64,000 nt of DNA. It comes from Nitrospinota bacterium. GTDB lineage: Bacteria; Nitrospinota_A; UBA7883; JACRGQ01. The notes under the pieces are model-generated. The model had not been told where the DNA came from and searched no databases. It worked only from the letters and a program-made list of their open reading frames with translations. This document shows positions 4,008 to 37,920 of this stretch, piece by piece (positions within the stretch are counted from its first letter, which is position 1; each line of letters begins with the position of its first letter). The DNA is taken from assembly GCA_029881495.1 (NCBI GenBank), contig JAOUMJ010000007.1:1-64000 (forward strand), in the 5' to 3' direction. A program made the translations under genes and the position numbers.

Positions 4008-4716
4008 TGCGGCCTGCCGGCGCTTTTATCTTCAGTTTGGCGTAGAGGGAAGACATCTCACTGGTGTAACTCTCTCCATCGGTATAAACGGTCAAAGGGG
4101 GGAGAAGCGCCTTTGAGCACTCTCCCCCCTTGACCGCCTGAAACATGACGAGGAAGGGGGTTTCTCCGTTTCTGCTCTGAACAAACCTGGTTCTTTTTAA
4201 CCCGAATCCCGATTTTTTCAATTCTCCTTCTGCTTCCGCGCTTCTTCCGGCAAGATGGCAGAAATAGAAAACCCCACCATCCTTCAGAAGATGCGAGGCG
4301 GAGTCTATAAGCTCGGCCAGAGTCAGTTTGATCTCATGCCTTGCGATGGCGACCTCCTCCAAGTGGTTGATCCTCCCGGACCTGAGTTTCCGGTATGGTG
4401 GATTGCTCACCGCCATATCGAAGCTCTCCCCCCTGAGGATGGATCGCGCCTCCCGGATATCGGCATGGAGGAAGGTCGCGAAAGGTGCATTGCTCTTGCC
4501 GAAAATGAGGGGAGGGCGCTGGATGTCGATGCCGACGAACAGGGCGTCAGGAAACGATTTTGCAAGGAGGAGGGGGATTATCCCGTTTCCGGTGCCAAGG
4601 TCGACTATTCGCCCATGATCCCCCGGCTCCACGAATCCCGCGAGGAGGAACGGGTCGAGCGAGTACCTGTACCCTTTTGCAGGCTGTAATATTTCAATGT
4701 TTTCTGATTCGGACAT
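4000..4716 (-). CDS. TrmN6-like class I SAM-dependent N6-adenine methyltransferase
   Basis: 238 residues from the ATG at 4716, which begins MSESENIEILQPAKGYRYS; a further in-frame ATG at 4758 would add 14 residues that do not resemble the family. Motif I is DLGTGNGIIPLLL and the N6-adenine catalytic motif is NPPY (SNPPYRKLRSG). The QPAKGYRYSLDPFLL opening matches the YfiC/TrmN6 family, which methylates A37 of tRNA-Val. The neighbouring miaA also acts at position 37, which supports a tRNA target. An rRNA or protein-glutamine target is less likely. Confidence 0.85.
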   Translation of the reverse strand: MSESENIEILQPAKGYRYSLDPFLLAGFVEPGDHGRIVDLGTGNGIIPLLLAKSFPDALFVGIDIQRPPLIFGKSNAPFATFLHADIREARSILRGESFDMAVSNPPYRKLRSGRINHLEEVAIARHEIKLTLAELIDSASHLLKDGGVFYFCHLAGRSAEAEGELKKSGFGLKRTRFVQSRNGETPFLVMFQAVKGGECSKALLPPLTVYTDGESYTSEMSSLYAKLKIKAPAGRNA

Positions 4717-37259: not shown

Positions 37260-37398
37260 CGTCAATAGATTAAACGATTTTATAAGTTTTGCCGAAATTC
37301 TTTTAGATGCGAATGCAGGGCTTAACGGCATATTCTTCCGGACCAAGTGCGGCACTTTGATGTTTTTCAGGGTGCCTTAGTATGGCAGGAATTGATGG

Positions 37399-37818
37399 GT
37401 TTGATATTGGGAAATGGTGGAGCTGAGGGGGATCGGTCACTCTCACGCTGCTCCTGCAACGCTCGCTCGACCCCGATTCGTTTTCTCGCAAAACGTCCTG
37501 TTTTGCGTTGCTCCTTGTTCGGTCGCAAACGAAAACTCACTTTCGATCCCCGGATGAATTTCGAGAGGCCGTTATCACGCAGAATGTGGGGTTTGATATG
37601 GGGAAATGGTGGAGCTGAGGGGGATCGGTCACTCTCGCGCTGCTCCTGCAACGCTCGCTCGACCCGATTCGTTTTCTCGCAAAACGTCCTGTTTTGCGTT
37701 GCTCCCTGTTCGGTCGCAAACGAAAACTCACTTTCGATCCCCGGATGAATTTCGAGAGGCCGTTATCACGCAGAATGTGGGGTTTGATATGGGGAAATGG
37801 TGGAGCTGAGGGGGATCG
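37399..37818. repeat. 191-bp tandem repeat carrying the 3' end of tRNA-Ala
   Basis: A 37-bp core occurs at 37399-37435, 37591-37627 and 37782-37818 with at most one mismatch. It consists of the 3'-most 18 bases of tRNA-Ala(GGC), the CCA and 16 bp of flank. The third copy is the real tRNA end. Spacing is 192 and 191 bp; the two full units (37399-37590, 37591-37781) are nearly identical. Each contains a hairpin with GCAAAAC and GTTTTGC arms (first copy 37488-37506). The pattern resembles serial att-type duplication at a tRNA 3' end, but no integrase is present. The whole stretch 37374-37797 has no real gene. Confidence 0.9.
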
Positions 37819-37873
37819 AACCCCTGACCTCTTCACTGCCAGTGAAGCGCGCTCCCAGCTGCGCCACAGCCCC
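37798..37873 (-). tRNA. tRNA-Ala(GGC)
   Basis: Full cloverleaf on the minus strand: acceptor GGGGCTG pairs with CAGCTCC; D-arm GCGCAGCTGGGAGCGC; anticodon stem CTTCA/TGAAG around loop CTGGCAG, giving anticodon GGC (Ala, codon GCC); T-arm with GGTTCGATCC; CCA encoded. 76 nt with CCA. A sigma-70 promoter lies 20 bases upstream. Confidence 0.97.
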
Positions 37874-37892: not shown

Positions 37893-37920
37893 AATATATA
37901 CGACTTTCCGGCAAAGTCAA
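37893..37920 (-). promoter_or_regulatory. sigma-70 promoter of tRNA-Ala
   Basis: On the minus strand, TTGACT (37915-37920), 16-base spacer and TATATT (37893-37898). The -10 ends 19 bases before the tRNA 5' end. The spacer contains a GACTTT/AAAGTC palindrome. Confidence 0.7.

Follow-up and report, generated by a model that had tools for sequence, protein, structure and literature searches.

The window, a stretch of 64,000 nucleotides of contig JAOUMJ010000007.1 from a Nitrospinota bacterium (assembly GCA_029881495.1), carries behind its tRNA-Ala(GGC) gene two tandem copies of an RtT-like element whose ends are tailored to the host tRNA (Table 1). Read in the sense of the tRNA, each unit consists of a spacer, an inverted copy of the T-arm, a folded core of about 105 nt and a direct copy of the tRNA 3' end; in the window unit the 55-nt spacer is followed by GGGGATCGAA, the core and CGATCCCCCTCAGCTCCACCA, the last being the tRNA 3' end. 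The best explanation of the whole is probably an RtT-like tRNA 3'-trailer cassette with local recombination, seeding through the T-arm and re-tailoring of the ends.

Table 1. Features of the tRNA-Ala(GGC) locus and its two-unit array. Positions are those of the window; CM, covariance model.
Feature	Position	Strand	Evidence
tRNA-Ala(GGC), host gene	37798..37873	-	ARAGORN; Rfam RF00005, 63 bits
Unit 1 spacer, 55 nt from tRNA CCA to inverted T-arm copy	37743..37797	-	
Unit 1 inverted T-arm copy GGGGATCGAA, reverse complement of tRNA nt 54-63; 5' strand of closing stem P1	37733..37742	-	
Unit 1 folded core (arms P2/P2a/P2b and P3, tandem G-A motifs)	37628..37732	-	Folds, covariation, CM match
Unit 1 CM match	37619-37743		133 bits
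Unit 1 direct copy of tRNA-Ala nt 56-76 (P1 3' strand, acceptor 3' strand, CCA)	37607..37627	-	Exact 21-nt match
Unit 2 spacer	37552..37606	-	
Unit 2 inverted T-arm copy	37542..37551	-	
Unit 2 folded core	37436..37541	-	CM match
Unit 2 CM match	37427-37552		131 bits
Unit 2 direct copy of tRNA-Ala nt 56-76	37415..37435	-	Exact 21-nt match
18-bp flank past last CCA copy, repeating the spacer start with 1 mismatch	37397..37414	-	
Promoter-like site TTGACT-16-TATATT upstream of tRNA-Ala	37893..37920	-	Consensus scan only

The complement of tRNA nt 56-76 including the CCA, TGGTGGAGCTGAGGGGGATCG, recurs at the direct copies of both units, and its copies are spaced 191 and 192 bp apart. The 37-bp core that the first-pass annotation had found three times at 191-192 bp spacing corresponds to this 21-nt copy of the tRNA end together with 16-19 bp of common flank. 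The two full units, described there as nearly identical, were measured as about 98% identical; a few substitutions and one indel distinguish them, which makes them separate copies. The GCAAAAC/GTTTTGC hairpin was confirmed, and several other helices accompany it in the unit. Two features had been overlooked: the inverted T-arm copy GGGGATCGAA on the minus strand of each unit, which pairs with the direct copy, and the many further copies in the genome, nearly all of them adjoining other tRNA genes. In line with the statement that no recombinase lies nearby, inspection by eye of the ORFs up to 4 kb from the window array revealed none, and a unit of this size could not code for one.

Strong selection maintains the folding of the core on the tRNA-sense strand, and the stem that closes it consists of the host tRNA's own sequence. 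This stem, P1, is formed by the inverted copy paired with the direct copy. Arm P2 bears the hairpins P2a (GCGACC-loop-GGGAGC) and P2b (loop around AGGAC), and arm P3 is formed by GGTCGAGCGAGC..GCGAGAGTGACC. By our reading of the sequences, tandem G-A mismatches appear to recur in P2, P2a and P3. The folding energy of the window unit was -54.7 kcal/mol, against -40.6 +/- 3.4 for shuffled sequences (z = -4.2). In an alignment of 76 elements, 90.8% of the pair cells were standard pairs (62.3 +/- 0.6 when shuffled), 35 of the 37 pairs had changed on both sides, and the covariation score was 0.668, compared with 0.182 +/- 0.007 for shuffled and at most 0.096 for slid controls; as this alignment was fitted to the covariance model, these counts lean towards structure. 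An unfitted alignment of 14 elements showed compensatory changes in 27 of the 37 pairs. The pairing of P1 is partly selected by the search, P1 being part of the model definition, while the acceptor-strand and CCA copy lie downstream of the model and are unaffected. Outside P1, G-T cells outnumbered A-C cells (113 vs 37), which indicates that it is the tRNA-sense strand that folds, either as RNA or as single-stranded DNA.

The P2b and P3 loops (alignment A3) often read ACAGGAYGU and resemble CsrA-binding hairpins, with GTGA and ACGA loops breaking the pattern. A role as CsrA sponge through AGGA in the loops was considered and kept as a lead only: ANGGA occurs at about twice the shuffled expectation, yet many P2b and P3 loops carry GTGA or ACGA instead.

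A DNA search of the same genome found the core at about ten further places, and copies adjoin the genes of tRNA-Arg(GCG), tRNA-Ser(GGA), tRNA-Ser(CGA), tRNA-Arg(TCT), tRNA-Gln(CTG) and tRNA-Lys(CTT) as well as the tmRNA gene. With the covariance model, 3-23 copies per genome were detected in all 11 genomes of the Nitrospinota family to which the window belongs (f1), among them 23 in G000, 18 in G008 and 12 in G006; 12 relatives belonging to other families of the class had no copy. Also the named pattern matches place this family in the Nitrospinota. The first-pass annotation had suggested the tRNA end as the target and proposed looking for copies beside other tRNA genes. The outcome was strongly positive: 102 of the 124 copies follow a tRNA or tmRNA gene on the same strand at a distance of less than 600 bp, covering most amino-acid types; by our estimate, based on some 40 tRNA genes in a genome of 2-3 Mb, chance would produce fewer than one such copy. 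The remaining 22 copies are mostly situated at contig ends or behind 3'-half tRNA remnants.

The first unit starts 45-73 nt after the tRNA in 65 of 86 cases and 20-30 nt after it in 12. Where no further unit follows, the extent of the repeat beyond the CCA varies between 0 and about 45 bp. Presence of the element varies within genus g6: at tRNA-Val(TAC) it is found in G005 and G008 and is absent from G009, and for several more tRNA loci at which G009 lacks an element, the orthologue in G005 or G008 carries one.

The ends of the elements follow the tRNA beside which they lie. In 24 elements the right copy reproduces the adjacent tRNA exactly over 21 nt. Among the 58 different tRNA tails of the set, that of the element's own tRNA fitted the right copy best in 58 of 102 cases and the left inverted copy best in 41 of 102. 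At tRNA-Gly(TCC) and tRNA-Glu(CTC) of the spirochaete G107 the inverted copies are about 20 nt long and correspond in each case to the local tRNA; matches of this length are unlikely to arise through stepwise mutation, which suggests copying. The inverted repeat thus differs between loci according to the host tRNA and is not a common terminal inverted repeat of the kind found in a MITE.

Several Nitrospinota loci depart from the simple plan. At many loci of the family (e.g. L134, L126, L107 and L161) a long, near-perfect hairpin of variable sequence begins directly after the CCA. Such hairpins were considered as native tRNA terminators and rejected for the Nitrospinota: the element-free tRNAs of g6 mostly lack them and show CCATTTTT, and the hairpin is therefore treated as part of many elements in this phylum. 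In E. coli proK and some spirochaetes, where the post-CCA hairpin is duplicated with the unit, it may be native. On the reverse strand of L042 (G007 C104), at about 450, a tRNA-Ala(GGC) gene is split in the T-loop, reading ...CCAGGGGTTC/GGGGAGTCGAA-core-CTACCCC/CTCAGCTCCACCA; this may be a true disruption, a snapshot of an insertion or an assembly error. In L040, L055, L085 and L088 the elements stand behind tRNA 3' halves whose 5' part is lost or was not recognised by ARAGORN; these halves resemble remains of former tRNA genes. L031 (G000 C1) includes two elements about 2 kb apart (2462-2591 and 4408-4537), in which the 5' halves have been replaced by a common foreign stretch, GTGCACGCGAGGGTAGGCGAATCC...

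Tandem arrays of like architecture are present in complete E. coli genomes. The 178-bp tyrT repeats (RtT, RF00391, rttR) have the inverted T-arm copy GGGGAAGGAT, a folded core with the tandem G-A hairpin CTCGAGCGCCAGCGAGAG and then AATCCTTCCCCCACCACCA; the tandem GA motif of RtT RNA has been noted independently (PMC7657543). Of the E. coli genomes, 5,426 in number, 4,708 carried RtT, and the median was three places. It is found also behind proK, where the direct copy is that of tRNA-Pro, AATCCTCTATCACCGACCA, and the inverted strand is GAGGAT. A separate RtT lineage occurs behind the first tRNA-Tyr gene in 1,922 genomes. In L215 three identical 175-bp units stand at this gene exactly between the CCA and the flank TCTCAAG, while in L217 and L218 TCTCAAG follows directly after the CCA; the second tRNA-Tyr gene has 0, 1, 3 or 6 units depending on the strain. 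Units are accordingly gained and lost precisely at the CCA boundary, insertion and precise loss being indistinguishable at any single E. coli site. Copy-number variation of RtT has been described in Salmonella Paratyphi A (PMC2658671) and an RtT sRNA is mentioned in an RNA-seq study of Thioalkalivibrio (PMC8092127), and beyond these and PMC7657543 little on RtT was found in the open-access literature. In the E. coli genome collection, 18 RtT places were on plasmid-classed records, and in the phage collection RtT matched only one record, a 515-kb Salmonella sequence.

The window family shares with RtT the position behind a tRNA gene on the same strand, a spacer of about 50-67 nt, the inverted T-arm copy, a folded core with a tandem G-A hairpin, the direct copy of the tRNA 3' end with the CCA, and tandem units of 170-190 bp. 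All the components of the RtT architecture, i.e. location downstream of the tRNA, inverted T-arm, core, direct copy and tandem units, were thus found in it. The two differ in that RtT is annotated as a tyrT product, whereas members of the window family lie behind most types of tRNA and behind tmRNA and reach 23 copies in one genome. At E<=1 the RtT model matched neither the window element nor any of eight further loci; it gave no match in the genome search of G000-G010 and none on the f1 loci scanned, and the covariance models R1 and R2 had no significant matches on the E. coli RtT loci, R2 scoring RtT at only 9-11 bits. Because these matches were insignificant, homology of the cores is not claimed, and the window element is filed as RtT-like in architecture and not as a member of RF00391. 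No other Rfam family provided a candidate, as only tRNA and tmRNA gave real matches in the window and related loci, leaving the element uncovered. In another Nitrospinota family, L223 (G019 C196) has at 1501-1652, behind tRNA-Ser(CGA), an RtT match of 37.5 bits, which is below the threshold of 45; the element there has RtT-type junctions, and its ends are fitted to tRNA-Ser(CGA). The elements appear to represent the wider family to which the E. coli tyrT repeats belong.

The same architecture was detected in 8 of 198 genomes of Spirochaetota at E<=1e-5, and in two of the eight the matches were on the first contig, a long one. The second model, run on a broad sample of 385 genomes, matched three that are outside the family; two of the three had an ARAGORN tRNA in the fetched stretch, with the element directly behind it. 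One copy, in a Clostridiales MAG, was behind a tRNA-Leu-like end, and the assignment to Clostridiales may be a binning error. In L210 (G107 C15) the tRNA-Gly element is followed by a second, broken unit with several similar inserts of about 70 bp (ATGAGGCCGCCCGCCGAAGGCGGGCACGTCAATCCATTCC...).

Integrative elements with a tRNA 3'-end attB resemble the present ones in carrying the tRNA end, restoring the gene and leaving the native flank after the last copy. They differ from the elements described here, which have no evident integrase and no cargo, measure only about 190 bp and contain an inverted gene-specific T-arm copy and a structured core. MITEs and REP/BIME sequences are likewise short, non-coding and repeated and have inverted ends or hairpins, but in the present family the ends follow the host tRNA, the copies are almost exclusively at tRNA or tmRNA 3' ends, and no partner transposase was found. 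Of the MITE-like element proposed in the first-pass annotation, the inverted repeat at the ends remains; its sequence, however, is that of the host tRNA and not of a transposase, and no tested partner enzyme tracks the elements. Casposons insert at the 3' end of a tRNA gene and duplicate that end, as is seen here, but they are far larger; the present element, which at about 191 bp cannot encode a Cas1-type gene, has neither such a gene nor cargo, and it contains an inverted copy of its target.

In the trailer-cassette reading, which is preferred here, the unit would be read through from the tRNA promoter. P1 would rebuild a helix ending in the tRNA 3' end and resembling the acceptor and T-stem, and on account of this resemblance the enzymes of tRNA processing would be expected to excise the unit as a separate small RNA, by analogy with what is reported for the rtT RNA of E. 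coli; P1 might also hide the anti-T-arm strand from the upstream tRNA. In E. coli the rtT RNA is presumably released from the tyrT transcript. The RefSeq note describes RtT as processed from that transcript, and together with the strand-specific folding and the mention in the Thioalkalivibrio RNA-seq study (PMC8092127) this favours an RNA cassette. At the window the same is favoured by the promoter-like site before the tRNA and by the consensus scan of this locus, which gave no terminator-like site between tRNA-Ala and the units. At many other loci, including the tmRNA gene of G000, most spirochaete cases and E. coli proK, a terminator-like hairpin stands between the CCA and the element, so that read-through should be limited; this argues for a DNA-level or purely selfish element there. 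Within one locus, copies would multiply and vanish by recombination between the identical tRNA-end repeats, and such expansion and loss of arrays through the repeated tRNA ends is well supported. The conserved T-arm (TTCRANTCC) may allow copies to seed a further tRNA gene, and both ends would then acquire the sequence of the new tRNA, either in a templated event at insertion or through palindrome-correcting template switching; for this transfer with re-tailoring a route is proposed only, and an enzyme that would carry copies between tRNA genes was not found.

The principal alternative is a selfish DNA element, in which a folded single strand is inserted at the T-loop or 3' end by a host or phage enzyme acting on tRNA attB sites, the carried end restores the gene and any RNA is incidental. 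It is considered rather unlikely, although several observations suit it: insertion leaves the tRNA intact with the native flank after the last copy, as at the three-unit site of E. coli; elements are often behind terminators; in L042 the tRNA-Ala gene is split by an element precisely in the T-loop; and the strand-specific folding is compatible also with single-stranded DNA. On the other hand, no linked recombinase was seen, the inverted gene-specific T-arm copy is not explained by integrase attachment, the window element had no match in the phage and plasmid collections, and the unit of 150-200 bp is far below the size of the integrase-dependent elements, all of which are, to our knowledge, far larger. 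A retroelement-like process would explain both the gene-specific inverted copies of about 20 nt and the combination of a constant junction at nt 56/57 with a left side that varies: a reverse transcriptase, priming at the end of the tRNA or at a nick in the T-loop, would copy the core RNA and then snap back onto the tRNA to produce the inverted copy. This reading is already strongly weakened and appears improbable, as RVT_1 was found in only one of the 11 element-bearing f1 genomes and was absent from G000 with its 23 copies.

Hairpins with an adjoining guide sequence form the ends of IS200/IS605. The hairpins, the strand specificity and the guide-like sequence by a hairpin in the present elements resemble these ends, and the unit could then be a hairpin element of the REP/RAYT or IS200/IS605 type, which a Y1 transposase would move using the inverted T-arm copy as the guide. 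That is very unlikely: the unit encodes no transposase, and Y1_Tnp was detected in 7 of the 11 f1 genomes against 5 of the 12 element-free relatives, so it does not track the elements, with no match in G002, G006 (12 copies), G008 (18 copies) and G009. Least credible is a plain local tandem duplication of the tRNA end and its flank by slippage, without wider meaning. The units at one locus are near identical and the copy number varies in E. coli, and tandem duplication by slippage or recombination, as also put forward in the first-pass annotation, does account for the number of units per locus, but it leaves unaccounted for the element itself, its presence at many tRNA genes and its tailored ends. 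The same folded core stands behind many tRNA genes and in other phyla with compensatory changes, and the copies found by the covariance model across the family refute slippage as the whole story.

The tyrT repeats have for decades been an oddity of one operon. The window family is a large extension of this known but unexplained kind and more than a local curiosity: the tyrT-type repeats are now placed in a wider class that stands behind most kinds of tRNA and tmRNA in Nitrospinota, that occurs in Spirochaetota and that uses more than one tRNA in E. coli, with one common rule, the building of the closing stem from the T-arm and 3' end of the host tRNA itself. A bolder proposal, put forward tentatively and with more doubt than confidence, is that of a cross-phylum class of mobile, gene-less elements of tRNA and tmRNA 3' ends which would rewrite both ends from the new host tRNA at insertion, in a templated manner without an RVT_1 reverse transcriptase or a Y1 transposase, and of which the E. 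coli tyrT repeats would be one lineage. As thousands of complete E. coli genomes include presence/absence and copy-number variants, the old puzzle can now be tested, and a new question is how an element without genes rewrites its ends for a new tRNA. The finding is also a caution that repeats of tRNA 3' ends are not always the footprints of integrases.
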